Assembly: GCA_028870115.1 (NCBI GenBank)
Contig: JAGWQH010000097.1
Coordinates: forward strand, 1 to 64,000
From: Candidatus Methylomirabilota bacterium
GTDB lineage: Bacteria > Methylomirabilota > Methylomirabilia > Methylomirabilales > Methylomirabilaceae
DNA: 64,000 nucleotides
Reading direction: 5' to 3'
The notes under the pieces were generated by a model, which was not told the DNA's origin, did no database searches, and was given only the letters and a program-made list of their open reading frames with translations. This document shows, piece by piece, positions 47,707 to 63,863 of the stretch; positions within the stretch are counted from its first letter, which is position 1; the number at the start of each line of letters is the position of its first letter. A program made the translations under genes and the position numbers.

Positions 47707-48612
47707 GTGAGAGATGGTTGCGACATACACCCAGGACGGCCGGTAGCCAAAGGCGAGACAGCCAATCGCTGCAACCTTGTTGTTCACCCCCTTCACGGCG
47801 CCGTTAGTAACCCGGATACGGATGCCGGTCAGTACACTGTTGAGGTAAATCCGGGGCATCCGAGCGAGTTGCTGGAAGGGCTCCGGCCGGCTGGAGCTGG
47901 CGCGGCAGAGCCACTGGCGAGGAAGGATACAGCAAAGAAAACCCACGAACGCGTTAATGATATTTTGTTGGGCCCGCTGGAAAGGCCGGTGTTGCAGTTG
48001 CTTTGCCGGCATATGCCCGCGTGGATCAATCCTGATATACTCACAGCCATGGGCGTCGGCGGCGGCCTTATCATCGCTTTCGGCTATTGGCTCAGTAATT
48101 TCGATAAGAATTTCTTATGGCTGGTAGATTTCGGATTTGTCGTCAATTGGTTGGGAGACAGTCTGGACGGCACCCTGGCGCGATATCGAAAAATCGAACG
48201 ATTCAAGTATGGATATTTTATTGATCATACGGTAGATACTTTTACTCAAACCATGGTTTGCATCGGCTTAGGGTTATCGCCGTTCGTCGATTTTAATTAC
48301 GCCATGCTGGCACTGGTCAGCTACTTGCAACTTGGGATTTTGACATATGTGCGTACGGCGGTTACGGGTGTTTTTAAGGTGTCTTACGGTAAAATCGGGC
48401 CCACAGAAGTTCGTGTCATTGTTGTCGGTGTGAATGCGGTTTTTTATTTCGCCAGCAATCCGATGATTCATTTGTTAGTTATCAATATCTCGCTTTTTGA
48501 TTTAATCATTCTTAGCATTGCCGTAGCGTTTTTTATTCATTATATCGTCGTTACGCTGCAACAGGCTGCGGCTTTAAGCAAACAAGATGGGTCCAGAAAA
48601 AAGTGCGCGTAG
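47707..48612 (+). CDS. CDP-alcohol phosphatidyltransferase
   Basis: 301 residues from a GTG with AGGAGG upstream. The first 75 residues are an odd, Pro/Gly-rich extension, and the true start may be further in. The CDP-OH-P motif reads GDSLDGTLARY through YGYFIDHTVD, with D151, D154, D173 and D177 in the required spacing. Six membrane helices follow. These enzymes attach an alcohol to a CDP-activated lipid or polyol. From about 48,030 on, base composition is markedly AT-richer than the flanks. Confidence 0.88.
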   Translation: MRDGCDIHPGRPVAKGETANRCNLVVHPLHGAVSNPDTDAGQYTVEVNPGHPSELLEGLRPAGAGAAEPLARKDTAKKTHERVNDILLGPLERPVLQLLCRHMPAWINPDILTAMGVGGGLIIAFGYWLSNFDKNFLWLVDFGFVVNWLGDSLDGTLARYRKIERFKYGYFIDHTVDTFTQTMVCIGLGLSPFVDFNYAMLALVSYLQLGILTYVRTAVTGVFKVSYGKIGPTEVRVIVVGVNAVFYFASNPMIHLLVINISLFDLIILSIAVAFFIHYIVVTLQQAAALSKQDGSRKKCA

Positions 48613-48854
48613 TGTGCGCTTGCAGTCTTGTAGGTCTGCAGTCTGCACGAATGTGTCAGTATTTACGCAACGAGCCTCGCGCCACAGATCATCAGTCAAG
48701 AATCAAGGAAGAAGTGTCACCTGCCGGGCGTCCGTGGCAAGCGGAAAGCGCTCCAACGGATGCTTCCCTTACTGGTCACTTTGAGGCAAAGCTTCATGCG
48801 TGTATTTCAGAAGAACATGCTTTGAATTGCGGAGTTTTAGTAGACAATGAATGA
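48603..48854 (+). CDS. Possible small protein of 83 residues
   Basis: A GTG-started frame that overlaps the end of the phosphatidyltransferase and the start of the next gene. It fills the 234-base gap between them without recognisable domain. Coupling of both ends supports it; lack of conservation data does not. Confidence 0.3.
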   Translation: MRVVCACSLVGLQSARMCQYLRNEPRATDHQSRIKEEVSPAGRPWQAESAPTDASLTGHFEAKLHACISEEHALNCGVLVDNE

Positions 48855-50334
48855 ATGTATTACGCAAGCTGTTCTCATTGCTCTAAATGCAGGACCTGTC
48901 GGCGCTACATACGATTCTGTATATGGCGGGGAAACGCTTTTAAATCGAGCCTTAATAGCCATGTCCAAAGCAGGCATACGACTGGCTAAAATTATTTGTT
49001 CTGACGGTCAGCGGGAACAAATTGAATCAATAATAAATTCGGTTCGAAAACGGATTGCTCTTGAATATGAAGTTTCAGAATTGAGATCCGATGAAATGTT
49101 ATCGAAAAGAATTTCCTGTATCGTCGGGAAATGGGATGATTCCTTTTTGATATTCGAAACGGATAAAATTGTACATCCGACATTTTTTGAGCAGGCTGCG
49201 AAAATCCATTCACAGCAAAAACCTTTGCTGATTGCGTACAAAAATGTTTGGTCGGATAACGGGCAGGTTGCGTTTGCTGAGCCATTTACTGAGAAATTCA
49301 AGGTAATCTTTAGCAATCCGAACGCATTTACGAAAATTGCTTTAAGTAAAAACGCTTTTCAGAATGCTACGTTTGATTGTGCCGAATCTCATTCCGTCGA
49401 GATTTCACCCGATTTAAAAAATGGCGTCTTCAGTACAGACATTGTCGTATGCCGTCGATCCGATGTACACAATATAGCCTTCAAGAATTTCGCTGAAATG
49501 ATCCAACGATGGAACGAAAAACATGTGCTTACCATAGGGTTCTTGGAAAGAGCTTGGTGGCTGAAAGTTACCGGAAGGGAAGGTAAAGCGCAGCTCACAG
49601 AATTGTTTTGGAGAATTGCTTTTAAGGAAATCAGCGGAGAATTTTCAAAACTCGTGAATTCCAAACTTTCTAAGCCGATGACATTTCTTTTTGTTCGCCT
49701 TGGATTCAGTCCGAATGTGATCAGCCTCATCCAGCTTATTCTGCTGCTGGTATCTTCGTCATTTTTATTAGTCAATCGGTATTGGGCGATGCTTGTATTC
49801 GCCATCGTATGGCAATTCGCCGCAGGGGTTTTAGACCGGTGCGATGGCGAGACGGCGCGCGTGCGTAATTATGAATCGGAGGCCGGAGGCCGATTCGACA
49901 TGCTGATTGATGATCTACGATTCGGTTTTCCTTTTGTTTTTTTGACGATTGCGCATTATCGACAATATCCGCAAGAGCTCAATTATGTGTTGATGGCTGC
50001 TGCAACGGCTATCTGGTATTGCACCGCGGCAGTCTTTCACAATCGCTTTCTGCGCCGCGCCGGCTACGTCAGCCATCAAGCCATGGGAGTAGATTTTCTG
50101 AAAACGCAGGAAAGCGCCTGGTTAAAATTCTACCAACGGATTCAGCCGTTCATCAAAGGCGACATCCGAACGTTTTATATTTTTCTTGTGACTTTTCTCG
50201 GTCACAAAAATGTTATCTTCTGGATGCTGATGGCGTATGCCTGGCCATTGGGCGCTCAATATCTTTTTACCATAAAGAAGTTTCGGCTCCTGTCCGAGAG
50301 AGTATGGGCACCTCACCTCGAGTCACCGTCCTGA
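48847..50334 (+). CDS. Fusion: degenerate nucleotidyltransferase domain + CDP-alcohol phosphotransferase
   Basis: 495 residues. The layout is that of bifunctional inositol-phosphate cytidylyltransferase / di-myo-inositol-phosphate synthase (IPCT-DIPPS). The N-terminal half has a Rossmann-like opening, AVLIALNAGPVGATYDSVYGGETLLNRALIA, but not the usual G-x-G-x-R nucleotide loop. The C-terminal half carries the intact CDP-OH-P motif, VLDRCDGETARV to GGRFDMLIDD (D330, D333, D351, D355), and several membrane spans. The N-terminal enzyme activity is therefore doubtful, and a separate nucleotidyltransferase lies at 54881. Codons are AT-rich. Confidence 0.78.
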   Translation: MNECITQAVLIALNAGPVGATYDSVYGGETLLNRALIAMSKAGIRLAKIICSDGQREQIESIINSVRKRIALEYEVSELRSDEMLSKRISCIVGKWDDSFLIFETDKIVHPTFFEQAAKIHSQQKPLLIAYKNVWSDNGQVAFAEPFTEKFKVIFSNPNAFTKIALSKNAFQNATFDCAESHSVEISPDLKNGVFSTDIVVCRRSDVHNIAFKNFAEMIQRWNEKHVLTIGFLERAWWLKVTGREGKAQLTELFWRIAFKEISGEFSKLVNSKLSKPMTFLFVRLGFSPNVISLIQLILLLVSSSFLLVNRYWAMLVFAIVWQFAAGVLDRCDGETARVRNYESEAGGRFDMLIDDLRFGFPFVFLTIAHYRQYPQELNYVLMAAATAIWYCTAAVFHNRFLRRAGYVSHQAMGVDFLKTQESAWLKFYQRIQPFIKGDIRTFYIFLVTFLGHKNVIFWMLMAYAWPLGAQYLFTIKKFRLLSERVWAPHLESPS

Positions 50335-51341
50335 TCCCGGTCCATAACCGCGAGCAGCATGTCGCCGCAGCAATCGAGAGCATCCTCGCCCAGAGCTTCA
50401 CCGACTTCGAACTCCTGCTTATCGACGACGGCTCTACCGACGGCAGCGTAGGAATCATGCGGTCGTATACGGCCGACCCCCGTGTGCGGCTAGCGTGTAA
50501 TGCGCATAACCTCGGTATACCGAGGACGCGCAACAGGGGCATTGATCTGGCCCGTGGTGAATATATCGCGATGCTGGACAGCGACGACTGGGCCTATCCG
50601 ACCAGGTTGGAGAAGCAGGTGGCCTTTCTTGACCGCCACAGCGACTTTGCGGTGGTGGGGGCCTGGGCCACGGAGATGGATGAGAACGGCCGATCCTTGA
50701 GAAGGGTCAAGATATTGCCCGTCTTACCAGGAGAGTTGCAGTCGCGGCTGCTGTTTACCTCCTGTCATCACCATTCTTCAATTATGGCCAGGACCGCCGT
50801 CTTGCAGGAGTATCGATACCGCGAACAGAATGCGGTTTGCGAAGACGTTGACCTCTTTGTTCGCCTTGCCAGAAAATATAAGCTCGGTAACCTACCCACA
50901 ATCCTGCTGCGTCGCAGGGTACACGCCAGCGGCATTACACGTGAAAAGGCGCAGTTGGTGAAGGAGAAAAACCTGGAAATTATTAGCGCTCAGCTTGCCG
51001 AGCTGGGCGTCGAGTTCACCCCTGCTGACCTGGAGCGCCACTTTCTCTTGCTGCGCATGGACAGGTTGGCGTCGACCCCTGACCGAACGTATATCGAGTG
51101 GGCCAACGCCTGGTTGCTCAAGCTGCAAGCGGCCAACCAACATGCCTTGCGTTATCCCGAACGTCCGTTGGCACGGATGGTGGGCGAGATATGGTGTGTG
51201 GTGTGCTGGCATGCCTTGACCGGCATGGGTTGGAGTGCCTGGAAATACTTCCGGGAGTCACCGTTAAGCAAAGAGGGGTGGTCGAGTGTGAGGATGTATC
51301 TTGTTCTACTGGCTTTCAGACACCTACCCCGGGATATCTGA
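50304..51341 (+). CDS. GT2 family glycosyltransferase, copy 1
   Basis: 345 residues from the ATG at 50304 (MGTSPRVTVLIPVHNREQ); the frame extends upstream inside the preceding gene, which it overlaps by 31 bases. GT-A fold: LLIDDGSTDGS, NLGIPRTRNRGIDLARGEYIAMLDSDDW (the DxD-type metal motif) and NAVCEDVDLFVRLA. The donor sugar is unknown. It has the GC-rich composition of the rest of the cluster, unlike the gene before it. It is a close duplicate of the next gene. Confidence 0.88.
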   Translation: MGTSPRVTVLIPVHNREQHVAAAIESILAQSFTDFELLLIDDGSTDGSVGIMRSYTADPRVRLACNAHNLGIPRTRNRGIDLARGEYIAMLDSDDWAYPTRLEKQVAFLDRHSDFAVVGAWATEMDENGRSLRRVKILPVLPGELQSRLLFTSCHHHSSIMARTAVLQEYRYREQNAVCEDVDLFVRLARKYKLGNLPTILLRRRVHASGITREKAQLVKEKNLEIISAQLAELGVEFTPADLERHFLLLRMDRLASTPDRTYIEWANAWLLKLQAANQHALRYPERPLARMVGEIWCVVCWHALTGMGWSAWKYFRESPLSKEGWSSVRMYLVLLAFRHLPRDI

Positions 51342-51402
51342 AGTATGGTCAGGCCGGCATGCTGACCCGTTGTGAACAGCGCGAGAGCAGAAGGTCTTTG
51401 AT

Positions 51403-52440
51403 GTGAGCATCTCACCTCGAGTCACCGTCCTGATCCCGGTCTATAACCGCGAGAAGTATGTCGCCGCAGCGATTGAGAGCATCCTCGTCCAGAGCTTCAC
51501 CAACTTCGAACTCCTCCTCATTGACGACGGCTCCACCGACGACAGCGTGGAGGTCCTGCAGTCGTATACGACGGACCCCCGTGTGCGGCTGGTGTGCAAT
51601 GAGCATAACCTCGGTATACCGAAGACGCGCAACAGGGGCATTGATCTGGCCTGTGGTGAGTATATCGCGATGCTGGACAGCGACGACTGGGCCTATCCGA
51701 CCAGGTTGGAGAAGCAGGTGGCCTTTCTTGACCGCCACAGCGACTTTGCGGTGGTGGGGGCCTGGGCGACGGAGATGGATGAGACAGGCCGATCCTTGAG
51801 CAGGGACAAGAGACGGTTTGTCTCGCCAGGAGAGTTGCAATCACGACTGCTGTTTCGATGTAGTCTTTGCACTTCTTCGATCATGACCAGAAAAGCCATT
51901 TTACAAGACTACGGGTACCGCGAACAGTACGCGGTTTGCGAAGACTTTGACCTCTTTGTGCGTGTTGCCAAGCACTATAAGCTCGGCAACTTGCCCGAGA
52001 CCCTCGTGCGTAAAAGGACACACGCGGGTAACATTGGGCGCGAGAAGGCACAGTTGACGAAGGCCAAGAACCAGGAGATCGCGAGCGCGCAGCTTACTGA
52101 GCTTGGGGTCACGTTTACCGCGACCGACTTAGAGCGTCATTTTGTCCTTCCCCACATGACCAGGTTGCAGTTTACGCCGGACCGAGAGTATCTGGAGTGG
52201 ACCGACGCCTGGTTGCAAAAGCTGCAGAAAGTCAACCACCGCGTCCTGCGCTATCCCGCGCAGGCATTTACCCGGCTGGTGGGCCAGCTATGGGTTACCG
52301 CATGCTGGCGCGCTTCGGGAGGCATGGGGTGGGCAGCGTGGAAATACTTCTGGCAATCGCCGCTGAGCAGAGGAGCCTGGGCAAGCGTGAAGCAGAATCT
52401 ACTCTTTTCTATTTTCAGACGCCCTCTGTGGGAGACCTAG
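51403..52440 (+). CDS. GT2 family glycosyltransferase, copy 2
   Basis: 345 residues, same length as copy 1 and highly similar throughout (SPRVTVLIPVYNREKYVAAAIES, LDSDDWAYPTRLEKQVAFLD). The nucleotide sequences share stretches of about 100 identical bases (for example around 50562-50671 and 51660-51769), so the duplication is recent or homogenised by gene conversion. C-terminal halves differ more, suggesting different acceptors. Confidence 0.88.
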   Translation: MSISPRVTVLIPVYNREKYVAAAIESILVQSFTNFELLLIDDGSTDDSVEVLQSYTTDPRVRLVCNEHNLGIPKTRNRGIDLACGEYIAMLDSDDWAYPTRLEKQVAFLDRHSDFAVVGAWATEMDETGRSLSRDKRRFVSPGELQSRLLFRCSLCTSSIMTRKAILQDYGYREQYAVCEDFDLFVRVAKHYKLGNLPETLVRKRTHAGNIGREKAQLTKAKNQEIASAQLTELGVTFTATDLERHFVLPHMTRLQFTPDREYLEWTDAWLQKLQKVNHRVLRYPAQAFTRLVGQLWVTACWRASGGMGWAAWKYFWQSPLSRGAWASVKQNLLFSIFRRPLWET

Positions 52441-52446
52441 TGTTGC

Positions 52447-53646
52447 TTGGGGTTGTTCACTAACGTGGCCGAGGATCGCCGGCACCTGGCGCTGTTCATG
52501 CTCAGCCTGTCGGGAGGAGGAGCGCAGCGGGAAATGATGACACTGGCTCACGCCTTCGCGGCTCGGGGCCACAAGGTGGATCTTGTGGTAGTACGCTCAC
52601 AAGATCCACCTCGCCAGGAAATATCGCCTTTAGTGCGCCTGGTGGCCCTTGACCCTTGGTGGACGCACTTGCCACGGGTTACGAAAGGCCCCTGGGCGTT
52701 GGCGAGCATACCAGCTTTGGCACGCTATCTGCAGCGCGAGCGGCCGGCGGTCCTGCTATCATGTTGCCACCTCGTCAATGTTGCCGCCCCGTGGGCACGC
52801 GCTCTCGCCGGCGTCCGTACAAAGTTGGTCATAAGGGTTGGCCAGCATCTGTCCCGAGGTGCTGTGAACATACAAAGACGGTTTGAGCTCTGGCAGGCGC
52901 GCCTCTTTTACCCCAGGGCCGACGCGATCATCACCAATTCGTACGGTGTTGCGAATGACGTCCTCAGCGTCACAGGGTTGCCGCCCGAGCGCATCGCGAT
53001 GATCTATTGTCCGGTGGTGACGCCCGAGCTGCAAGAGAAGATGCGCGCTCCACTGGACCATCCCTGGTTTGTGCCAGGCGGCCCGCCAGTGTTGCTGGCA
53101 GTGGGGAGACTTGTAGCTCAAAAGGATTTCCAGACCCTGCTCAAGGCCTTTGCCCGGGTGCGGGCGGTGCGTCAGGCGCGGCTCGTCATCCTCGGGGAGG
53201 GAAAGAGACGGGCAAGGCTGGAAGTGCTGGCGCAGAAGCTGGGCGTGGCCGCCGATGTGGACCTACCGGGGTTTGCGCTCAATCCCTTCCCGTACATGGT
53301 ACGAGCCTCGGTCTTTGTGCTGTCCTCCGCCTGGGAAGGTTTCGGCATGGTTGTGGCCGAAGCCATGGCCTGTGGCTGCTCGGTAGTGAGTACGGACTGC
53401 CCGAGCGGTCCGGCGGAGATTCTGGACGGCGGTACCTACGGCCCGCTGGTGCCAGTGGGGGACGATGCGGCGCTGGCCAACGCCATTCTCTCGGTGCTGG
53501 AGACGCCGCCGGATCCGAACCGATTGCGCGCGCGGGCGGCCCTGTTCTCTGTAGATCATGCCGCCGATTGCTGTCTGGAGCTGTTGCTGGGGCTGTGCAA
53601 AGGAGAGCAACCGAAGAACATCATCTCGCATGAAAAAAGAAGATAG
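52447..53646 (+). CDS. GT4 family glycosyltransferase, copy 1
   Basis: 399 residues from a TTG at 52447 (a GTG at 52465 is the alternative). GT-B fold: LFMLSLSGGGAQREMMTLAHAFAARGHKVDLVV at the N-terminus, the C-terminal donor site VFVLSSAWEGFGMVVAEAMACGCSVVSTDCPSGPAEIL. It probably transfers a sugar from a nucleotide donor with retention of configuration. A close paralogue follows, overlapping by 17 bases. Confidence 0.88.
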   Translation: MGLFTNVAEDRRHLALFMLSLSGGGAQREMMTLAHAFAARGHKVDLVVVRSQDPPRQEISPLVRLVALDPWWTHLPRVTKGPWALASIPALARYLQRERPAVLLSCCHLVNVAAPWARALAGVRTKLVIRVGQHLSRGAVNIQRRFELWQARLFYPRADAIITNSYGVANDVLSVTGLPPERIAMIYCPVVTPELQEKMRAPLDHPWFVPGGPPVLLAVGRLVAQKDFQTLLKAFARVRAVRQARLVILGEGKRRARLEVLAQKLGVAADVDLPGFALNPFPYMVRASVFVLSSAWEGFGMVVAEAMACGCSVVSTDCPSGPAEILDGGTYGPLVPVGDDAALANAILSVLETPPDPNRLRARAALFSVDHAADCCLELLLGLCKGEQPKNIISHEKRR

Positions 53647-54796
53647 CAGGCACCTGGCCGTATTCATCTACGGCCTCTCTGGAAGCGGATCGGAGCGGCG
53701 CACGCTGACCCTTGCCCACGCCTTTGCTACTCGAGGCCACAAGGTGGATCTTGTGGTGGCCTGTTCGCAAGGTCCTCTTTACCGAGAACTCTCTCCCCTG
53801 GTGCGTCTGGTGGCCCTCGACCACCGCTGGAGGTGCTTACCATGGGCCGCAATGAATAAGTCCCGCTGGGCGTTGGCAAGCGTCGCAGCGTTGGCAAGCT
53901 ATCTACGACACGAACAGCCGGATGTTGTGCTGTCAGCAGCAAACCATGTCAACGATGCGGCCCTGTGGGCGCGGTATCTCGCCCGCGCCCGAACGAGGTT
54001 GGCGGTGAGGGTCAGCAACCATCTGTCCCCATCTGCTGTACACACGCAGAGTAAAAAACTCTTCCGGCCACAACTTGCAGGCCGGTTCTATCCCTGGGCC
54101 GACGCCATTATCGCCGTATCGGATGGCGTTGCGGATGACGTTGCTCGCGTTACCAGCTTGCCGCGTGAGCGCATCACGACGATCTACAATCCGGTGGTGA
54201 CACCCGAGTTGCAAGAGAAGGCGCGCGCTGCGCTCGATCACCCTTGGTTCGCCCCTGGTAGCCCGCCTGTCGTGTTGGGGGTGGGAAGGCTTGCAACGCA
54301 AAAAGATTTCTCGACCCTGCTTAGGGCCTTTGGTCTGGTGCGGGCCGTGCGGAAGGCACGGCTCATTATCCTGGGGGAGGGGAAAGAGCGCCCAGAATTA
54401 GAGGCCTTAACCAGGGGATTGGATATAGCTTCTGATGTGGCTCTACCTGGTTTTACACCAAATCCCTTTCCATACATGGCGCGGGCTTCACTCTTGGTGC
54501 TGTCCTCCGCCTGGGAAGGGCTCCCTGGCGTTCTGATTGAAGCCATGGCCTGCGGCTGTCCGGTGGTGAGTACAGACTGTCCAAGCGGTCCGGCGGAGAT
54601 TCTGGACGGCGGCACCTACGGCCCGCTGGTGCCAGTGGGGGACGATACGGCGCTGGCCAAGGCCATTCTCTCGGTGCTGGAGACGCCGCCCGACTCGGAG
54701 AGGCTGCGTACACAGGCTGCCCAGTTTTCTGTTGACCGTGCCACTGACCGATATCTGCAAGTGTTGCTTGAGCTGAGCGGCCTGCCAAAGTGCTAA
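53630..54796 (+). CDS. GT4 family glycosyltransferase, copy 2
   Basis: 388 residues from the ATG at 53630 (MKKEDSRHLAVFIYGLSGSG). Same architecture as copy 1, with LSSAWEGLPGVLIEAMACGCPVVSTDCPSGPAEIL. The last 250 bases are nearly identical to those of copy 1. The N-terminal halves are more diverged. It ends the rightward glycosyltransferase run; the next gene is on the other strand. Confidence 0.88.
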   Translation: MKKEDSRHLAVFIYGLSGSGSERRTLTLAHAFATRGHKVDLVVACSQGPLYRELSPLVRLVALDHRWRCLPWAAMNKSRWALASVAALASYLRHEQPDVVLSAANHVNDAALWARYLARARTRLAVRVSNHLSPSAVHTQSKKLFRPQLAGRFYPWADAIIAVSDGVADDVARVTSLPRERITTIYNPVVTPELQEKARAALDHPWFAPGSPPVVLGVGRLATQKDFSTLLRAFGLVRAVRKARLIILGEGKERPELEALTRGLDIASDVALPGFTPNPFPYMARASLLVLSSAWEGLPGVLIEAMACGCPVVSTDCPSGPAEILDGGTYGPLVPVGDDTALAKAILSVLETPPDSERLRTQAAQFSVDRATDRYLQVLLELSGLPKC

Positions 54797-54880: not shown

Positions 54881-55678
54881 TTAAGTATCCCCTGACGGCG
54901 AGAACATTATTGCTTCTTCGGGCACCGTCCGCTCGCGGGCGAAATATGAGCGTGCCTTCGCAAGATCCTTTGGTGTGTCAATTTCCGTCCACCATAGCCC
55001 CTCAATTAACTCAGTCTCCATCGACAACGAGCCGGCCATACTACTGATGACGTCGTGATACCACTTGCGTAGGTTCGCAGGGTTCCGTATAGCTGTATCT
55101 AATGCGGCCCGAAAGGCCTCCACGCCCTTGCCTCGAAACACCATAAGGCCAACCGACTCGCCATCGATCTTAGGAACTGCCAACACTTTCCCCACCGCTT
55201 TAAGTCGGCCACCGCCGTCCAGCACTGTCTTCATATCGTCTTTATCGTACTCTGCCTTTTGATCAATGGCCAGGGTCACAGGACCCTTGTGGGAGGTGAG
55301 CACGCGACGCAGGACTTCCACATCAAAGAGGGTATCACCATTCAGCAGCATAAAGTCCTTTGTCATTTCGGGAATCGCCAGCCAGCATGTGACGAGAGTG
55401 TTGGTGGTCCTGAAGAAGGGGTTGTAACGGGTGTGGACCTCAAGGTTCTCCATCGGATGGGTGGCGAGGAAACGCTCAACCTTGTTAGCGCCGAAACCTA
55501 CCATAACGGTCACATGTTGAATACCGCACTGTGCCAACATGCGCAACTGCAACTCGAGCACCGGTCGTCCGGCGTCTATGGGGAGAAGGCACTTGGGCAA
55601 CTCTGCGGTCATGGGCAGCAGGCGCCGTCCACTGCCGGCGCTAAGAATAATAGCTGTTTCGGTTTGTTGCTGTTTCAT
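54881..55678 (-). CDS. Sugar-phosphate / phosphocholine-type nucleotidyltransferase
   Basis: 265 residues. The nucleotide loop LSAGSGRRLLPMTAELPKCLLPI, the metal motif LLNGDTLFD and ETELIEGLWWTEIDTPKDL are those of NTP_transferase proteins of the LicC/IPCT-like group, which make CDP-alcohols or sugar nucleotides. It may supply the CDP-activated substrate for the two CDP-alcohol transferases upstream, whose own nucleotidyltransferase domain looks damaged. It is transcribed leftward, next to the ceramide synthase-like gene. Confidence 0.82.
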   Translation of the reverse strand: MKQQQTETAIILSAGSGRRLLPMTAELPKCLLPIDAGRPVLELQLRMLAQCGIQHVTVMVGFGANKVERFLATHPMENLEVHTRYNPFFRTTNTLVTCWLAIPEMTKDFMLLNGDTLFDVEVLRRVLTSHKGPVTLAIDQKAEYDKDDMKTVLDGGGRLKAVGKVLAVPKIDGESVGLMVFRGKGVEAFRAALDTAIRNPANLRKWYHDVISSMAGSLSMETELIEGLWWTEIDTPKDLAKARSYFARERTVPEEAIMFSPSGDT

Positions 55679-55757
55679 GAAGAGTTAGTTTACCTTATGG
55701 CCGGTAGCCGTACAAGCATACAGTTCCAGAGGACAAGGTTGAACGGCTGACCATGAC

Positions 55758-56960
55758 TCATCTCAATGCCTTTTCATAGATCCGGTAGCACTTGTAGGGT
55801 ATCCCTCCAATCATGGCAAGCATATTCCGCATCGGCATGTTGTCCTCCAGGATCCAGGACAGTTCGACCTCGCGAACTCCGCGCCTGATTCCATAGCCGC
55901 GCACGGCATCGATGAGCATAAAGGCGAGCGCAGTTCCCAGCGCGCTTCTTTGAAAATATTTGCGTACGCCCATCAGGACGACACGAGCCGTTGTCGGACG
56001 CTTGACTTTCAGCCGCCACAAGAGTTTGAGCCAGCCAAATGGTAACAAACGTCCGCGCAGATCGCCGATCGCCTCATTGAGATTCGGTAGAGCTACGATC
56101 ATGCCGGCCGGCGCCCCGTCTACTTCTGCAATTTGCACGCACTCGTCCTCCACCAGCAGTCGCAAGCTGTACCCCAAATGTCGGAACTCCTCCTCTGTGA
56201 AGGGAATGAAGCCCCAGTTTGCAGACCACGCATCCTCGTAGATCTCCTTGAGAATATGGAGCTCCTCGCTCATAGATGACCTGCGCAACGGTCTGATCCG
56301 AACACATCCGGCGGCTTTATTCACAGCGGCCTGCATAAGCGCGGGTGGCGTGAAATCAGTGGCAACGCGATAGGCCAGCAGATCCTTCGAGCCCTCGTAT
56401 CCCTCGGCCCTGATTCGATCGGCATAATAGGGGCGGGCATGGCCCATCATAATCATTGGAGGCGTGTCGTACCCCTTCACGAGCAGCCCGCACTCCTGGT
56501 TAATCGAGAGGTTAAATGGACCTCTGATGCGCAACATCCCCTGGTTGCGCAGCCAGCTTTCCGCTGTACTCAACAATGCGTGAAACGTCTCTGCCTCGTC
56601 CTCGGCTTCAAGCAAGCCGAAGAATCCGGTGGCATCCCGATGCCGCGCTTCATGTAATTCATCAATTTGGGCGCTGATCCGTCCGACCGGCCTGGTCCCG
56701 CGATAGGCGAGCCAGAAACGGCAGCGCGCGTGTGCGAAGTATGGGTTACGCCGCGAGAACTGCTCTCGTCGCTCGATCAGCAAGGGAGGGATCCATACGG
56801 GATCGTCGGCATAGACCGACCATGGGAGGTGAATGAATCGACGCAGATCCCGCGATCCATTTATCGGCTCGATGCGTATGGAATCGAGAGTTGCTCGCAC
56901 GGAAGGAGGCATCTCCTCAGGAAAGGTGGTGGAGTTCCGATCGGACATCACATCGCCCAC
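55758..56960 (-). CDS. cerS: GNAT-fold bacterial ceramide synthase (bCerS-like)
   Basis: 400 residues. The text FIHLPWSVYADDPVWIPPLLIERREQFSRRNPYFAHARCRFWLAYRG is characteristic of the acyltransferase that accompanies serine palmitoyltransferase in bacterial sphingolipid clusters, described in Caulobacter as the ceramide synthase. It would N-acylate a sphingoid base. A GNAT-like acyl-CoA fold follows (VGRISAQID, MIMMGHARPYY, VVLMGVRKYFQRSALGTALAF). It is divergent from the acyl-AMP ligase gene, and the 460-base gap is their shared regulatory region. Function is inferred from family and context. Confidence 0.75.
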   Translation of the reverse strand: MGDVMSDRNSTTFPEEMPPSVRATLDSIRIEPINGSRDLRRFIHLPWSVYADDPVWIPPLLIERREQFSRRNPYFAHARCRFWLAYRGTRPVGRISAQIDELHEARHRDATGFFGLLEAEDEAETFHALLSTAESWLRNQGMLRIRGPFNLSINQECGLLVKGYDTPPMIMMGHARPYYADRIRAEGYEGSKDLLAYRVATDFTPPALMQAAVNKAAGCVRIRPLRRSSMSEELHILKEIYEDAWSANWGFIPFTEEEFRHLGYSLRLLVEDECVQIAEVDGAPAGMIVALPNLNEAIGDLRGRLLPFGWLKLLWRLKVKRPTTARVVLMGVRKYFQRSALGTALAFMLIDAVRGYGIRRGVREVELSWILEDNMPMRNMLAMIGGIPYKCYRIYEKALR

Positions 56961-57420
56961 GCAGGAGCCGCTTTATCACTTTTCAACAACTTGTATAGTC
57001 CTCTGTTTTTTTGTTGCACAAAACCCCTCAAGTCTTGTATATAATACGGGCTGACTTTTGGGAGTGGGGGTGGCAGGCAGTCGATGACTGCCTTTGATTG
57101 TTCCTATTATGCATGTTTAATGGTGGTATTCAATACATTATAGGCGCTTGATGAAACGGTACGACCGATGCCCCTACGCGCTTAGTCCATGGATCGGAGT
57201 GTTGCAACGGCTATCTGCTGTAGGCTTCGATACATTCGATACATCAGTTCCCTCCGGGAGGCTAGCGGCGGCAGTTTGCCGCTGTCGCTTTACATGCGTC
57301 GCTTGGCTTGTGGTATTGAGCCTGTTCTGCTCCTCTTGGCCAGTACGTGAAAGGTCTTGTCAGCGCTGAGGGGTGAGGTCATCAGGCAACTTCGCTTTGT
57401 GCACAGGGGGTGTAGCGGGA
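56961..57420. other. Divergent regulatory region of the ceramide cluster
   Basis: 460 bases. TATAAT at 57040-57045 (plus strand) is a possible -10. The inverted repeat AGGCAGTC-GAT-GACTGCCT lies at 57075-57093. A rightward frame at 57148-57369 has no domain and no clear ribosome-binding site, so it is not called. Confidence 0.4.
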
Positions 57421-59247
57421 ATGGTAACAGGACCGACGCCGACTGAGAATACTCTGCCGCTTCGGGTCACTGGCTTTTCTACGCTGGCCGAGGCGCTGGA
57501 CTATGCAGCCGGGGGAGAGACTGGATGTAATTTTTACGGGGACCGAGGTGAGCTGTACGCAGTCCTGCCGTATGCTGATCTTCGAGAGCAGGCGCGATTG
57601 CTGGCGCGACGCCTTATGAGCCTGCGACTCGAGCGAGGTGCTCGCGTGGCAATCGTCGCGGATACCGGTCCGGATTTTCAGCGCTTCTTTTTTGCGTGTC
57701 AGTACGCCGGCTTGGTGCCCGTTCCGCTGTCGGCTTCGCTCCTGATAAGCGGTCGTAAGCGATATGTTACCCAACTTCGGGCGCTTCTCGCGAACTGCCG
57801 GCCCTCCGTCGCGATGGCTCCACCTGAATTCTTCCCATTCCTGAGCGAGGCTGCCGACGGTCTCGAGTTGGACCATATCGGCACGGCAGAAAGCTTTGAT
57901 CGCCTGCCTGAAGCCCTGGGGGAGTTGGAGTCCTTGCGTCCTGCCGAGATGGCCTATCTTCAATACACCTCGGGAAGCACTCGGTTTCCCCGCGGGGTGA
58001 TGATTTCCCAGACCGCAGTACTCGCCAACCTGGAGGGAATCCTCACACAGGGTCTCAAGATTCGCCCGGGAGATCGCGCGGTATCCTGGCTGCCTTTTTA
58101 TCACGATATGGGGCTTGTGGGGTTCGTGCTTGCGCCGATGGTGTGCCAGGTCTCCGTAGATTATTTGAAAACGCAGTCGTTTGCCATGCGACCCCGGTTG
58201 TGGCTGTCGCTGATGACGCAGGCGAAGGCTACCATTTCATTCAGCCCATCCTTTGGGTATGAGATGTGTGCGAGGCGTCTCAGGCGGGATGAGGCCAGCA
58301 GGTTTGACCTCAGCGCGTGGCGGGCCGCGGGCGTAGGCGCTGAAACAATTCGGCCCGGTGTCTTAAAGGAATTTGCAGAAGTACTCGCGCCCAGTGGGTT
58401 CAAGTCCAGCGCATTTGTGGCCTGCTATGGAATGGCTGAAGCCTCCCTTGCTGTAAGTTTTGCGCCAACAGATAAGGGTATCGCCATTGATCAGGTAGAC
58501 CAGACCCTTTTGTCCAAGTGCGGGGTGGCATCTCCTCTAAACGGGTGTGAGTTCAGATCGGACTCAGACAAGATAAACATAAGCCGATTTGTCAATTGCG
58601 GCGCCCCGCTGTCTGGAATTCAAGTTGAGGTGCGAGGCGAACAGGGCCATGTTCTACCCGAACGCCACGCGGGCGTAATTTTCGTGCGAGGCGCCAATAT
58701 GACGTCCGGCTATTTCGGCGATCCCGAGAAAACCCGAAAGGTCTTGTCCTCAGATGGATGGCTCGACACAGGGGACCTCGGATATCTCGTGAAAGGCAGC
58801 CTTGTCATCATTGGCCGAAAGAAAGATGTCATTATCGTGCATGGTCGAAACATCTGGCCTCAGGATTTGGAGCATCTCGCCGAGGAGTTGCCGGAGGTCA
58901 GACCGGGCGACGCATGCGCGTTCTCGGTAGAGGCCCCCGACCGGACCGAGATGGCCGTGATGGTCGTCCACTGCCGGGAGCTGGATGCTGCCAAACAAGC
59001 CGATTTTATCCGCCGGTTGCAGGGGGTGATCCGCGAGTATTTCGCGCTCGACTGTTTCGTCGAACTCGTTCCTCCCCGTACCCTGCCGCGCACATCCTCC
59101 GGGAAGCTTTCCCGTTCAAAGACCCGGGAAGAATTTCTGGCCCGCAATAACGTAGTCCAGTTCTTCCACAGCCGAAACGGATCCGCCGAGACTCGTCTAC
59201 AGCAACCCCGCCGGCAAGCGGACCCATGCGGGACGTTGTTGCGTTAA
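57421..59247 (+). CDS. Fatty acyl-AMP ligase (AasR-like)
   Basis: 608 residues from the ATG at 57421, after AGGGGG at ten bases; a GTG 48 bases upstream is possible. An ANL superfamily enzyme: LQYTSGSTRFPRGVMISQ (P-loop), SWLPFYHDMGLVGF (typical of FAAL proteins), CYGMAEASLAVSF, DTGDLGYLVKGSLVIIGRKKDVIIVHGRNIWPQDLE, and the C-terminal lysine in RTSSGKLSRSK. It would load a fatty acid onto the small acyl carrier protein downstream. It overlaps the reductase gene by 22 bases. The same set of gene families surrounds spt in Caulobacter sphingolipid loci. Confidence 0.85.
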   Translation: MVTGPTPTENTLPLRVTGFSTLAEALDYAAGGETGCNFYGDRGELYAVLPYADLREQARLLARRLMSLRLERGARVAIVADTGPDFQRFFFACQYAGLVPVPLSASLLISGRKRYVTQLRALLANCRPSVAMAPPEFFPFLSEAADGLELDHIGTAESFDRLPEALGELESLRPAEMAYLQYTSGSTRFPRGVMISQTAVLANLEGILTQGLKIRPGDRAVSWLPFYHDMGLVGFVLAPMVCQVSVDYLKTQSFAMRPRLWLSLMTQAKATISFSPSFGYEMCARRLRRDEASRFDLSAWRAAGVGAETIRPGVLKEFAEVLAPSGFKSSAFVACYGMAEASLAVSFAPTDKGIAIDQVDQTLLSKCGVASPLNGCEFRSDSDKINISRFVNCGAPLSGIQVEVRGEQGHVLPERHAGVIFVRGANMTSGYFGDPEKTRKVLSSDGWLDTGDLGYLVKGSLVIIGRKKDVIIVHGRNIWPQDLEHLAEELPEVRPGDACAFSVEAPDRTEMAVMVVHCRELDAAKQADFIRRLQGVIREYFALDCFVELVPPRTLPRTSSGKLSRSKTREEFLARNNVVQFFHSRNGSAETRLQQPRRQADPCGTLLR

Positions 59248-60179
59248 CGGGGGCGACGGGATTCATTGGGAGCGCTGTAGCCCGAAGACTGATACAAGGA
59301 GGATGGCGGGTACGCGCGCTACGCCGTTCACCGTCTCTGACAGCCCGCCTTGCGAGCACTCCGCTTCAGTGGGTTCTGGGCACATTCGAAGATCGCGATT
59401 GCCTCGAAAACCTAGTGGGCGACGCGGTTGCTGTGGTCCATTGCGCAGGGGCGGTGCGCGGGATCACCAAGGCCGACTTTTACCCAGCGAACGTTGAGGC
59501 GGTCTCGCGGCTGGCCCATATTGCCGCCAGCCGAAGCCCCGTACCCCGATTTCTGCTGATATCATCATTGGCGGCTCGAGAGCCGGAGTTATCGCCCTAC
59601 GCAGCCAGCAAGCGGATGGGAGAACTCGCCCTATCCGCGGCCGCAGATCGACTTCCGTGGACCGCGCTACGCCCTCCAGTGGTCTATGGCCCAGAAGACC
59701 GGGCGATGCGTCCCCTGCTTCGCCTGATGCTGCACGGGATCGCCCCCATACTGGGTCGAAAAGACGCCAGATTCTCCTTACTTTACGTGGAAGACCTGGC
59801 AGAGGCGGTGATACAGTGGTTGATAAGCAACATCCGAGAGAAACGCCCTTTCGAGTTGGATGATGGGCATCCCAATGGGTATGCTTGGCATGAGGTTGTC
59901 GAAACCTTCCAGCAGCTTCGGGGAAAACAGGTGATCCATTTCCAGGTGCCGGAGCTGATCCTGAATGTCGTCGCGACGCTCAACAAGATGGTGGCATCTG
60001 TGATAGACTACGCACCGATGTTCACCCCAGGGAAGGTGCGAGAGTTTAGACACCAGAGCTGGATTTGCGATAACGCTCCGTTCTGCCAGGTCGCCAACTG
60101 GACGCCAAAGGTGCGTTTGGAAGAAGGTCTGCGGCTCACTCTTGGTCTCCCGTTGCCCGGGCAAGAGGTAGGCGCATAA
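59226..60179 (+). CDS. cerR: NAD-dependent epimerase/reductase, CerR-like
   Basis: 317 residues of the extended SDR family. The nucleotide-binding motif TGATGFIGSAVARRL opens the protein; the catalytic pair lies in SPYAASKRMGE (Y-x3-K). Acceptor and C-terminal segments are intact (RFSLLYVEDLAEAV). CerR proteins reduce the keto group of the sphingoid base or ceramide. It is placed between the acyl-AMP ligase and acyl carrier protein, the order found in bacterial ceramide clusters. Confidence 0.82.
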   Translation: MRDVVALTGATGFIGSAVARRLIQGGWRVRALRRSPSLTARLASTPLQWVLGTFEDRDCLENLVGDAVAVVHCAGAVRGITKADFYPANVEAVSRLAHIAASRSPVPRFLLISSLAAREPELSPYAASKRMGELALSAAADRLPWTALRPPVVYGPEDRAMRPLLRLMLHGIAPILGRKDARFSLLYVEDLAEAVIQWLISNIREKRPFELDDGHPNGYAWHEVVETFQQLRGKQVIHFQVPELILNVVATLNKMVASVIDYAPMFTPGKVREFRHQSWICDNAPFCQVANWTPKVRLEEGLRLTLGLPLPGQEVGA

Positions 60180-60206
60180 CCCGATTCATATCACGCTGAC
60201 TCACAG

Positions 60207-60455
60207 ATGGCTCACTACGAAGCGATACTTCCGCAACTCTACGAGATCCTACGGCCACATGGACAGGACGGACAGACCCTTTCGGAGGGGACAGAGCTCG
60301 TAGCCGATCTCGATCTCGATTCGTTGAAGGTCATGGAGTTGCTGCTTGAGGTAGAGGAACGGTTTGATATCTCCATTCCTTTAAACATCGTCCCGGACTT
60401 ACGGACCATCGGGGATTTCGCCAGGCAGATCGAGCAACTCATGGAGCATAAGTGA
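60207..60455 (+). CDS. Acyl carrier protein (AcpR-like)
   Basis: 82 residues. The phosphopantetheine site DLDLDSLKVMELLLEVEERF has S39. This dedicated carrier probably presents the acyl chain from the ligase to serine palmitoyltransferase or to the ceramide synthase. The gene overlaps spt by four bases (GTGA). Confidence 0.9.
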   Translation: MAHYEAILPQLYEILRPHGQDGQTLSEGTELVADLDLDSLKVMELLLEVEERFDISIPLNIVPDLRTIGDFARQIEQLMEHK

Positions 60456-61642
60456 CAGCCCTTCTGGACAAGTTTCGACAACTCGCCGACGCTCGTGAGG
60501 CGTTGACTCAATCGAGCCAAGATCCCTTTCGGGTGACGATCGAGCGCCTCTTGTCGCCAACCGAGGCCATCGTGAACGGCCGTCCAATGATCCTGGCAGG
60601 GACAAACAACTACCTCGGTTTAACGTTCGACCCTCAGTGTATAGCGGCGGCGGTCCAAGCCGTGCAAGCGCAGGGAACGGGCACGACCGGATCCAGAATG
60701 GCGAATGGCAGTTTCAGTGGACACCTGGCATTAGAGAAAGAGCTGGCGGAGTTTTATGGGCGCCAGCGGTGTGATGTCTTCTCAACCGGCTACCTGGCCA
60801 ATCTGGGCATCATTTCGGCCCTCGCCGGCCCTGGAGATGTGATCCTGATCGATGCCGATTGTCATGCGAGCATCTATGATGGCTGCCGGATGAGCGGGGC
60901 GGAGGTCATTCGATTTCGTCACAACGATACCGCCGATCTCCATAAGCGCCTCACACGTCTGGGGAGGCGTTGCGTCAATACGCTCATCATCGCGGAAGGC
61001 CTCTACAGCATGTTGGGGGATCGAGCGGCGCTGGCGGAGATAACGACCTTGAAGCAGGAGCATGGCGCTTATCTGCTCCTGGATGAGGCCCACTCGCTTG
61101 GGGTCTTGGGAGAGCGGGGCCGCGGGCGTGCCGAGGAGGCCGGCGCCGAGGACAGCGTCGATTTTATCGTCGGGACCTTCAGTAAGAGCCTGGGTGCCAC
61201 CGGAGGGTTCTGTGTCTCGGATCATCCAGCGATGGAACTGGTCCGGTATGCCAGCCGCCCGTATATCTTCACCGCATCCCTATGTCCGTCGGTTGTCGCC
61301 TCCACAAGGGCTGCCCTGCTAAGACTCCGAACGGAACCCGAACTGCGTCTGAAGCTCTGGACCAATGCGCGGCGGTTGTATGACTCGCTGAAGGATTTGG
61401 GATTCAGGCTGGGTCCGGAACCCAGTCCGATCATCGCAGTTCGATTCGGACAGGCAGAAAACACGATCGCCTTCTGGAACGGTCTGTTCCGTCAAGACGT
61501 GTACGTGAACATGATCCTGCCACCGGCGGCCCCAGACGGCGGGAGCCTGCTCCGGTGTAGCGTGAGCGCGGCGCATACCCCTGACCAGATCGACCGCATT
61601 TCGAAAGCCTTTGCGTCCGTGAAGGCAGCCTTCTCTTCGTAA
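60452..61642 (+). CDS. spt: Serine palmitoyltransferase (alpha-oxoamine synthase)
   Basis: 396 residues from a GTG start. A PLP-dependent alpha-oxoamine synthase: H138 in DADCHASIYDG stacks on PLP, D211/H214 in DEAHSLG, and the Schiff-base lysine K245 in GTFSKSLGATGG. The family includes KBL, AONS and ALAS. Coupling to a dedicated acyl carrier protein, acyl ligase and CerR-like reductase makes serine palmitoyltransferase the best call; the reaction joins serine to an acyl chain to give 3-ketosphinganine. Confidence 0.87.
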   Translation: MTALLDKFRQLADAREALTQSSQDPFRVTIERLLSPTEAIVNGRPMILAGTNNYLGLTFDPQCIAAAVQAVQAQGTGTTGSRMANGSFSGHLALEKELAEFYGRQRCDVFSTGYLANLGIISALAGPGDVILIDADCHASIYDGCRMSGAEVIRFRHNDTADLHKRLTRLGRRCVNTLIIAEGLYSMLGDRAALAEITTLKQEHGAYLLLDEAHSLGVLGERGRGRAEEAGAEDSVDFIVGTFSKSLGATGGFCVSDHPAMELVRYASRPYIFTASLCPSVVASTRAALLRLRTEPELRLKLWTNARRLYDSLKDLGFRLGPEPSPIIAVRFGQAENTIAFWNGLFRQDVYVNMILPPAAPDGGSLLRCSVSAAHTPDQIDRISKAFASVKAAFSS

Positions 61643-61796: not shown

Positions 61797-63863
61797 ATGT
61801 GCGGCATTGCCGGATTTCTTGACGCGCGCGGCGCGTTAGACGCCGAGCGCTTGGCGGCGACAGGCGCGGCGATGGCGGCGACCCTGCGCCACCGGGGACC
61901 TGATGATTCCGGCGTCTGGATCGATCCGGCGGCAGGAATCTCGTTGGCGCACCAGCGGCTCGCCATCCTCGACCTCTCGCCCGCGGGGCGGCAGCCGATA
62001 GTGTCCTCATGCGGGCGTCTTGTCCTCACCTATAACGGTGAGATCTACAATCACGCTGAGCTCCGGCGCGAGCTCGAGGCCCGCGGCCGGCGCTTTCGCG
62101 GCCACTGCGATAGCGAGGTCCTTGCCGAGGCGTGCGCAGAGTGGGGAGTCGAACCCGCGCTTGGGCGGCTTAACGGCATGTTCGCCTTTGCCGTGTGGGA
62201 CCGAGTAGCGCGGACGCTTGTGCTGGCGCGTGATCGAGTCGGCATCAAGCCGCTCTACTGGGCACGATTTGGTAACCTGTTCATGTTCGGCTCTGAGCTC
62301 AAGGCGTTGCGCGCGCATGCCGGCTGGGCTCCTGAGATCGATCGAGACAGTCTTGCTGCCTTCGTTCGCTGCAGCTACGTACCGACGCCATACAGTATCT
62401 ATTGCGGCGTCTTCAAGCTGCCGCCCGGTCACCTCCTCATGCTACCCTATGCTGACGCACCAGAGATCCATCCCTACTGGGATGCACGAGAGGTCGCTGC
62501 TGCGGCCGCCGCCAACCGTCTCGACGTCAGCGAGGCGGAGGCCGTCGACGGCCTCGAATCTCTGCTGCGCGATGCCGTCGGCCGTCACATGGCGGCCGAC
62601 GTACCGCTGGGCGCCTTCCTCTCCGGCGGAATCGATTCGTCTGTGGTCGCGGCCCTGATGCAGGCGCAGAGCAGCCGTCCGATCAACACCTACACGATCG
62701 GTTTCGCGGAGCCGCGCTACAATGAGGCGCGCCACGCCCGTGAGGTGGCGGCGCATCTCGGCACCGCGCATACCGAACTGTACGTCGCGCCCGAACAGGC
62801 CTTAGCGATCATCCCCGAGCTGCCGCGCTGGTACGACGAGCCGTTCGCCGACAGTTCCCAGATCCCGACCCTGCTCCTCTCGGAGCTGACCCGGCGGCAT
62901 GTCACCGTGGCGCTCTCAGGCGACGGTGGCGACGAACTGCTCGGAGGCTATACAAGCTACTACAAGGCATGGGCCCTTGCACAGGCTGGCCGGTATCTCC
63001 CCATGCCGCTGCGAGGCGCCACAGCGGGCGCCACAACGGCTGCCGCAGAGTGGATCCTGGCAGGGGGCGCGATGCTGTCCGGCGTTCTCCCGGTCTCCCT
63101 CCGCCATAAGCTTTCGCTCAATCGGAGGAGTGTGCTGACACACACCTTCGTGGGGGCAACTGAGAGCGACCTCTATCGTCAGGTAGTCTGCCCGCTTGAG
63201 GACTCGGCCGCTGTCATGTCCGGCGCCCGTGAACGGCCGGATCTCCTGCAGGATGCGACGGCAGAAGCCACCTTGCCAGACTTTATGGAACGCATCGGCT
63301 TCCTCGATATGATGACACGCCTGCCGGACGGTATGCTGACCAAGGTGGATCGAGCGAGCATGGCATTCGGCCTTGAGGTTCGCGTGCCGCTGCTAGACCA
63401 TCGCGTCGTGGAATACGTCTGGCGCCTGGCGCCGGCACTCAAATATACGGACACCGGCGAGAATAAACGACTCTTGCGCAAGGTGCTTTACCGGTACGTT
63501 CCGCGGGCGCTGGTCGACCGCCCGAAAAGGGGCTTTGACGTGCCGGTCAAGGCGTGGCTTTGGGGTCCGTTACGGGCGTGGGCGGAAGAGCTGCTCGATG
63601 AACGGAGACTCGCCGAGGACGGCTTTTTCGACCCCACACTTGTCCGCGCACGCTGGCACGAACATCTTGCGGGAATGCATAACCGTGGGAAGTTGCTGTG
63701 GCGCGTCCTGATGTTCCAGCAGTGGCTGCGACATCAGGCGGCAGAGTCCGCAATCACGAGTGGCTGCCCAGGAGCATCCGGTATCGATCGTTCGGCGCCG
63801 CCTGAAGCGCCTACGGCTTTTCGGTTGCACGCTGAAGGTGGCTTCAGGAGCATCGTTGGCTAG
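61797..63863 (+). CDS. asnB: Asparagine synthase (glutamine-hydrolysing) family protein
   Basis: 688 residues. The class II amidotransferase domain starts MCGIAGFLD with nucleophile C2; RHRGPDDSG, RLAILDLSPAGRQPI, YNGEIYNH and DSEV follow. The synthase domain has LSGGIDSSVVAAL and SGDGGDELLGGYTSY. Members in surface-polysaccharide clusters often amidate sugars or peptides instead of making free asparagine. The C-terminal 40 residues have no family match. It precedes the Stealth gene by 20 bases. Confidence 0.9.
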   Translation: MCGIAGFLDARGALDAERLAATGAAMAATLRHRGPDDSGVWIDPAAGISLAHQRLAILDLSPAGRQPIVSSCGRLVLTYNGEIYNHAELRRELEARGRRFRGHCDSEVLAEACAEWGVEPALGRLNGMFAFAVWDRVARTLVLARDRVGIKPLYWARFGNLFMFGSELKALRAHAGWAPEIDRDSLAAFVRCSYVPTPYSIYCGVFKLPPGHLLMLPYADAPEIHPYWDAREVAAAAAANRLDVSEAEAVDGLESLLRDAVGRHMAADVPLGAFLSGGIDSSVVAALMQAQSSRPINTYTIGFAEPRYNEARHAREVAAHLGTAHTELYVAPEQALAIIPELPRWYDEPFADSSQIPTLLLSELTRRHVTVALSGDGGDELLGGYTSYYKAWALAQAGRYLPMPLRGATAGATTAAAEWILAGGAMLSGVLPVSLRHKLSLNRRSVLTHTFVGATESDLYRQVVCPLEDSAAVMSGARERPDLLQDATAEATLPDFMERIGFLDMMTRLPDGMLTKVDRASMAFGLEVRVPLLDHRVVEYVWRLAPALKYTDTGENKRLLRKVLYRYVPRALVDRPKRGFDVPVKAWLWGPLRAWAEELLDERRLAEDGFFDPTLVRARWHEHLAGMHNRGKLLWRVLMFQQWLRHQAAESAITSGCPGASGIDRSAPPEAPTAFRLHAEGGFRSIVG

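Follow-up and report, generated by a model that had tools for sequence, protein, structure and literature searches.

A candidate exchangeable head-group cassette beside a ceramide gene cluster in Candidatus Methylomirabilis

In Caulobacter crescentus, the ceramide genes aasR, cerR, acpR, spt, and cerS are found together with cpgA-D and lptC2/F2/G2 in the interval CC_1152-CC_1168 (PMC11324152; PMC12275187), where the role of lptC2/F2/G2 in export is itself only a proposal (PMC11324152). A locus of Pseudomonas luteola (L063), for which orthology to the Caulobacter CPG2 locus has been described (PMC11324152), has the contiguous order CDP-alcohol transferase, LptG2, LptF2, CpgD-like, CC_1153-like, CerS, AasR, CerR, AcpR, Spt, and ABC transporter, the last standing some distance after Spt. 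All comparisons with Caulobacter reported here were made through this locus and through published residues, and ‘CC_1153-like’ denotes a MobA-like gene named from its position and family by way of P. luteola. Spt-like genes are already known across some 40 phyla (PMC11334938), and therefore their mere presence in the NC10 bacteria is not surprising. Here we describe a ceramide locus in a 64,000-nucleotide stretch of DNA (positions 1 to 64,000 of contig JAGWQH010000097.1, assembly GCA_028870115.1; hereafter the window) from a Candidatus Methylomirabilis (NC10) genome of 2.8 Mb that is 99.99% complete. The less expected part of this locus is the set of head-group genes beside the ceramide core, not the core itself.

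The window and Caulobacter have in common homologues of the five ceramide genes, an LptF2G2 pair, and a CpgD-family cytidylyltransferase. However, no ceramide-kinase-like gene was found in the window's genome and no CC_1153-like gene in its locus; two CDP-alcohol transferases and four glycosyltransferases are present instead, and the cytidylyltransferase is divergent. The P. luteola locus, unlike the window, has a CC_1153-like gene and the type I CDP-alcohol transferase (defined below), and the cdpA, cdpB, and glycosyltransferase genes of the window were not found there. The features of the window locus are as follows.

45278-46408, minus strand: LptG2, second LptG-type permease, of the ceramide locus (PF03739)
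46342-47406, minus strand: LptF2, second LptF-type permease, of the ceramide locus (PF03739; 36% identity to P. luteola LptF2)
47707-48612, plus strand: cdpA, CDP-alcohol phosphotransferase (PF01066; complete D-x2-DG-x2-AR-x8-G-x3-D-x3-D motif)
48847-50334, plus strand: cdpB, CDP-alcohol phosphotransferase of IPCT-DIPPS-like architecture (PF01066; N-terminal domain of ~230 residues)
50295-51341, plus strand: GT2a, family 2 glycosyltransferase (PF00535; start 50295 used, longest frame from 50019)
51403-52440, plus strand: GT2b, family 2 glycosyltransferase resembling GT2a (PF00535; the two cross-match)
52447-53646, plus strand: GT4a, family 4 glycosyltransferase (PF00534/PF13692)
53558-54796, plus strand: GT4b, family 4 glycosyltransferase (PF13692)
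54881-55678, minus strand: divergent CpgD-like cytidylyltransferase, putative CDP-X synthase (44-49% identity to CpgD-like proteins)
55758-56960, minus strand: bCerS, tandem-GNAT ceramide synthase (PF00583 Acetyltransf_1, E 1e-7; 51% identity to the P. luteola GNAT protein)
57373-59247, plus strand: AasR-type fatty acyl-AMP ligase / acyl-acyl carrier protein (ACP) synthetase (AMP-binding, 1e-50; PRK09192)
59226-60179, plus strand: CerR-like ketoceramide reductase, NAD-dependent epimerase/reductase (PF01370 Epimerase, 8e-26; conserved position)
60207-60455, plus strand: AcpR-type ACP with DSL motif (PF00550 PP-binding, 5e-9; conserved position)
60452-61642, plus strand: serine palmitoyltransferase (SPT) (Aminotran_1_2, 1e-55; NF047599)

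The loci of the genus differ in the slot between LptF2 and the ceramide core. The genus sample comprised 15 genomes (G000 being the window's own), 11 of which have an SPT at the cut-off used, and the content of the slot differs among these 11. Gene content, identities, gene order, missing family matches, and trees were all observed directly. Five genomes (G021, G022, G024, G025, and G026) carry CpgD-like and CC_1153-like genes in the slot, which we call type I; the core, the LptF2G2 pair, and the flanking genes of these loci are as in the window. In type II (G033 and G034) the slot holds a CC_1153-like gene, and an FkbM methyltransferase, a different NTP transferase, and a Glyphos_transf gene (CDP-glycerol glycerophosphotransferase family) lie between GNAT and AasR (L004:3325-6411), which suggests a third type of head group. 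Type III, found in the window, G031, G030, and G027, consists of cdpB, two family 2 glycosyltransferases, and one or more of family 4, with cdpA present wherever the contig extends far enough. The two complete slots, those of the window and G031, also contain the divergent cytidylyltransferase, while the contigs of G030 and G027 stop before its expected position. The core tree has two clades, both with 100% support, and type III is found in each. We infer exchange of cassettes, as opposed to an ancestor with several from which different lineages retained different ones.

The type of cassette also coincides with the presence of a putative ceramide kinase. The DAGK_cat family (PF00781, that of the ceramide kinase CpgB) gave no match in the window's genome although control genomes were positive; it is present in all seven type I and II genomes and in none of the four of type III, a split expected 1 in 330 times by Fisher's test if genomes are treated as independent, which they are not. 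Outside this comparison, G029 has no SPT at the cut-off used, yet its DAGK_cat match scores above the others and may be an unrelated lipid kinase. Downstream of the core, the order in G021, G025, and G026 is ABC transporter, CDP-alcohol transferase, DAGK, and desaturase, whereas in the window's genome and G027 the ABC transporter is directly followed by the desaturase; this comparison covers these five genomes, as the regions fetched for the others stop short. The type I CDP-alcohol transferase of the relatives was not found at the window's locus, and a search for CC_1153-like homologues, limited to the 46 kb surrounding it, gave none. Because these three genes were not found, the sphingolipid head group encoded here probably differs from that of Caulobacter.

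Pfam matches agree with the first-pass annotation, made from the sequence alone, that CDP-alcohol transferases (47707 and 48847) and glycosyltransferases (50295-54796) stand beside the ceramide genes. The true start of cdpA is probably downstream of 47707. The closest solved structures to cdpB are AF2299 and IPCT-DIPPS; enzymes of the IPCT-DIPPS and archaetidylinositol-phosphate-synthase types have the same CDP-alcohol phosphotransferase motif and the same layout of an N-terminal domain followed by the transferase. However, the sequence match is confined to the transferase part, and any inositol specificity would be hypothetical. The G+C content of cdpA (0.46) and cdpB (0.44) is below that of the window (0.58), whose lowest-G+C 1-kb stretch falls in cdpB, and that of the glycosyltransferases is near the window average. 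Values are 0.46 and 0.45 for cdpA and cdpB in G031, and 0.54 and 0.47 in G030. This low G+C suggests that the pair is of foreign origin. At E 1e-20, only 4 of 95 genomes sampled from the phylum gave relatives of cdpB, namely the four type III genomes of this genus; a search of 395 genomes from another phylum, run without a positive control, gave none at E 1e-30; among 10 genomes with ceramide loci, four gave partial-length matches of only 22-32% identity. Homologues of GT4b lie directly 3' of SPT in other ceramide loci (L045, L064, and L072), and the homologue in G022 is 63% identical. The two family 2 and two family 4 genes at 50295-54796 look like tandem duplicates.

The first-pass annotation named the ceramide genes correctly and left the gene at 54881 undescribed; it encodes a homologue of the CpgD-like cytidylyltransferases. 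We mapped the published ligand residues of CpgD (PMC12275187; PMC13228409) onto this protein indirectly via P. luteola, the alignment offset starting at 3, falling to 0, and returning to 2 along the sequence. At 11 of the 13 mapped positions, among them T88, a backbone contact that is variable in the family, and T93, which is Ser in most relatives, the window protein has the CpgD residue. Mapped residues are kept, Met147, Lys161, Ser170, and Trp201 among them, except for Asn90, which in CpgD contacts ribose and glycerate. The window and G031 proteins have Thr here, against Asn in the 32 other sequences, and the two form a long separate branch with 100% support. The structural model (pLDDT 87.8) has a fold nearest to the CTP transferases PntC, IMPCT, and LicC, and by sequence the protein resembles CpgD-like proteins much more than IMPCT. 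Judged by its residues and its place in the tree, the protein is a CpgD-family outlier that keeps the predicted catalytic residues.

The ceramide core is almost certainly genuine. Pfam, NCBIfam, and solved-structure searches, together with synteny, bear out the Caulobacter-type five-gene set that had been proposed, and all five genes are intact. Each of them, like the NTP transferase gene at 54881, forms a full open frame whose coordinates match those first given closely or exactly. AasR scores 770 bits against the PRK09192 fatty acyl-AMP ligase model of NCBIfam (cut-off 600), and its closest solved structure is the fatty acyl-adenylate ligase 3pbk. The model of bCerS has a tandem GNAT fold (mean pLDDT 75), and a comparison with sequences in the PDB gave no match worth naming. 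In a survey of 80 named SPT loci from several phyla, many of them shortened by contig ends, CerR, ACP, AasR, and GNAT recur around SPT in most loci, often with a CpgD-like gene, and the position of CerR beside AasR, ACP, and SPT is kept. Since most of these loci have the same neighbors, the cluster is not a product of chance. The core proteins are 73-93% identical to those of the type I loci and 40-61% identical to those of P. luteola, and the nearest named relatives of the SPT (83-86% identity) are from metagenome-assembled genomes of Candidatus Methylomirabilis or Methylomirabilota. The core is thus an ordinary further example of a known cluster type.

The gene at 60452 belongs to the same superfamily as 8-amino-7-oxononanoate synthase (AONS, BioF) and 2-amino-3-ketobutyrate CoA ligase (KBL), and matches the bioF model at 337 bits, so that it could in principle be one of these enzymes, with no sphingolipid being made. 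However, 337 bits is below the bioF cut-off of 426, and the KBL model (2am3keto_CoA) is likewise missed at 266 bits against 493, whereas the SPT equivalog NF047599 (SerpalmtaseBetaP) is passed at 622 bits against 500. The best solved relatives are 2x8u and 2jg2. A tree was built from these two solved SPTs together with eight from the loci and, for comparison, BioF and Kbl of E. coli (the genome's own BioF was left out). The two E. coli proteins split off at 100%, and the window protein falls on the SPT side. Internal support among the SPTs was mostly low and nothing was drawn from their order. Furthermore, a separate BioF above cut-off is encoded on contig C3 of the same genome, and four ceramide partner genes adjoin the 60452 gene. 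The model cut-offs and the tree therefore rule out AONS or KBL, a grouping that the first-pass annotation had named, together with absence of the lipids, as what would undo its proposal, and we regard this alternative as extremely improbable.

The genome has two LptFG pairs, one in the window (45278-47406) and one on contig C105. In trees, LptF2 and LptG2 of the window group with the pairs of other ceramide loci, and the C105 pair falls outside both groups. A second pair thus stands beside the ceramide genes, apart from the genome's other pair, as in P. luteola, where LptF2 adjoins the CpgD-like and ceramide genes. By this phylogenetic placement we assign the window pair as the second, sphingolipid-locus pair that accompanies ceramide clusters, and the C105 pair as the canonical one. 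The window pair is therefore not evidence for lipopolysaccharide, as the first-pass annotation had taken it to be; that part of the annotation falls, while its Caulobacter-type ceramide set stands. The presence of the C105 pair and the LptF2/LptG2 tree rule out the window pair as the lipopolysaccharide one. A large gene at 38647-41223 was also considered as LptD and rejected, as it encodes a MacB/FtsX-type permease; the single LptD match in the genome is on contig C47.

Reading the enzymatic steps, the transfer of a phospho-alcohol to ceramide, glycosylation, and transport from the gene families, we propose the following pathway. AasR would load a fatty acid onto AcpR, SPT would condense the acyl group with serine to 3-ketosphinganine, the tandem-GNAT bCerS would N-acylate this product, and CerR would reduce the keto group to yield dihydroceramide, an order of acylation and then reduction that is taken from PMC11087976. 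The 54881 cytidylyltransferase would convert CTP and a phospho-alcohol X (glycerate, inositol, or other) to CDP-X, from which cdpA and cdpB may move phospho-X onto the 1-OH of ceramide without a ceramide kinase. This would replace a Caulobacter-like ceramide kinase step followed by CDP-glycerate-dependent addition. The glycosyltransferases at 50295-54796 could then extend the head group, and an ABC transporter just beyond the window, together with LptF2G2, could carry the finished lipid to the outer membrane. The phospho- or glyco-sphingolipid suggested in the first-pass annotation is a plausible product. For the proposal as a whole, namely a constant ceramide core with an exchangeable head-group part, a kinase-independent CDP-alcohol route, glycosylation, and LptF2G2 export, we estimate a probability of about one half. 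It is a more tentative suggestion that the genus swaps whole head-group pathways at a fixed slot, the window's version leading without a kinase to an undescribed glycosylated ceramide phosphodiester with dedicated LptF2G2 export.

Several observations weigh against this proposal. The kinase need not be linked to the locus, because there is no DAGK within the 21 kb of P. luteola locus sequence and in the type II genomes it is on a contig other than that of the locus. Two of the four kinase-less genomes, G027 and G030, are only 80-83% complete; the G030 cassette is linked on one contig to LptF2 but not to ceramide genes, that of G027 is known from just one 3.2 kb contig, and the cytidylyltransferase was not seen in the contigs read from either. 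The cdpA, cdpB, and glycosyltransferase genes could also serve another glycan. Glycosyltransferases of families 2 and 4 are common in polysaccharide loci, cdpA and cdpB are low in G+C, and asparagine-synthase-like and Stealth-family genes come next, all of which would fit an unrelated polysaccharide or glycolipid island, with only the core, the exporter pair, and perhaps the cytidylyltransferase belonging together. We consider such an island unlikely, as these genes sit where relatives have their head-group genes, turn up in both clades, and coincide with the missing kinase and, at a second place, the missing type I CDP-alcohol transferase gene.

The near-complete set of CpgD ligand residues in the 54881 protein would also suit a true CpgD making CDP-glycerate, with cdpA and cdpB replacing CpgA and others in a variant route to ceramide (di)phosphoglycerate, a Caulobacter-like product. 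The missing ceramide-kinase-like gene, the lack of a CC_1153-like gene in the locus, Thr in place of the glycerate-contacting Asn90, and the long separate branch make this route improbable. A sub-case of our proposal would fix X as inositol, giving ceramide phosphoinositol or a derivative from a CDP-inositol donor. This finds some support in the architecture of cdpB, in a myo-inositol-1-phosphate synthase gene on contig C29, and in a 54881 fold that matches inositol-1-phosphate cytidylyltransferase among others. However, the synthase gene adjoins its own CDP-alcohol transferase and may therefore serve another lipid, and the cytidylyltransferase sequence points to CpgD-like proteins rather than IMPCT; inositol thus seems a doubtful choice of X.

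Further genes lie around this and related loci. One may be an accessory to the locus, although its membership is uncertain:

61797-63863, plus strand: glutamine-hydrolysing asparagine-synthase-like amidotransferase (PF00733)

Of the genus regions searched, those of G000, G022, and G031 alone contain this gene. Just beyond the window (L111:3-4784) are a Stealth-family gene, the ABC transporter, a fatty acid desaturase-family gene, and a DUF2141 gene; in Caulobacter, a DesA-family enzyme is reported to hydroxylate the ceramide acyl chain (PMC11324152). Directly after SPT in the type I genome G021 is a sulfotransferase-family gene (L105:2075-3001), and at L006:9711-17686 SPT is followed by a NeuB, HAD, SDR, aldehyde dehydrogenase, cytidylyltransferase, and transketolase series. 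Contig C29 of the window's genome carries a second lipid-like module (L123:3255-11923) with an aminotransferase, an oxidoreductase, a CDP-alcohol phosphotransferase with an N-terminal domain, the myo-inositol-1-phosphate synthase, a 218-aa protein, and a 968-aa RND-type transporter that by inspection resembles the hopanoid transporter HpnN. Between 44 and 64 kb of the window no RNA family matched, and matches to an exact ribosome-site pattern were no more frequent than chance.

The locus predicts sphingolipids in nitrite-dependent methane oxidizers, for which we found no such report in the literature searched. Few bacterial lineages have known sphingolipid head groups, and the survival of Caulobacter without lipopolysaccharide depends in part on an anionic sphingolipid head group (PMC12275187). 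A genus with a constant ceramide core and head-group genes that change as a block would be a natural comparison for assigning the CpgA, CpgC, and CC_1153 steps.

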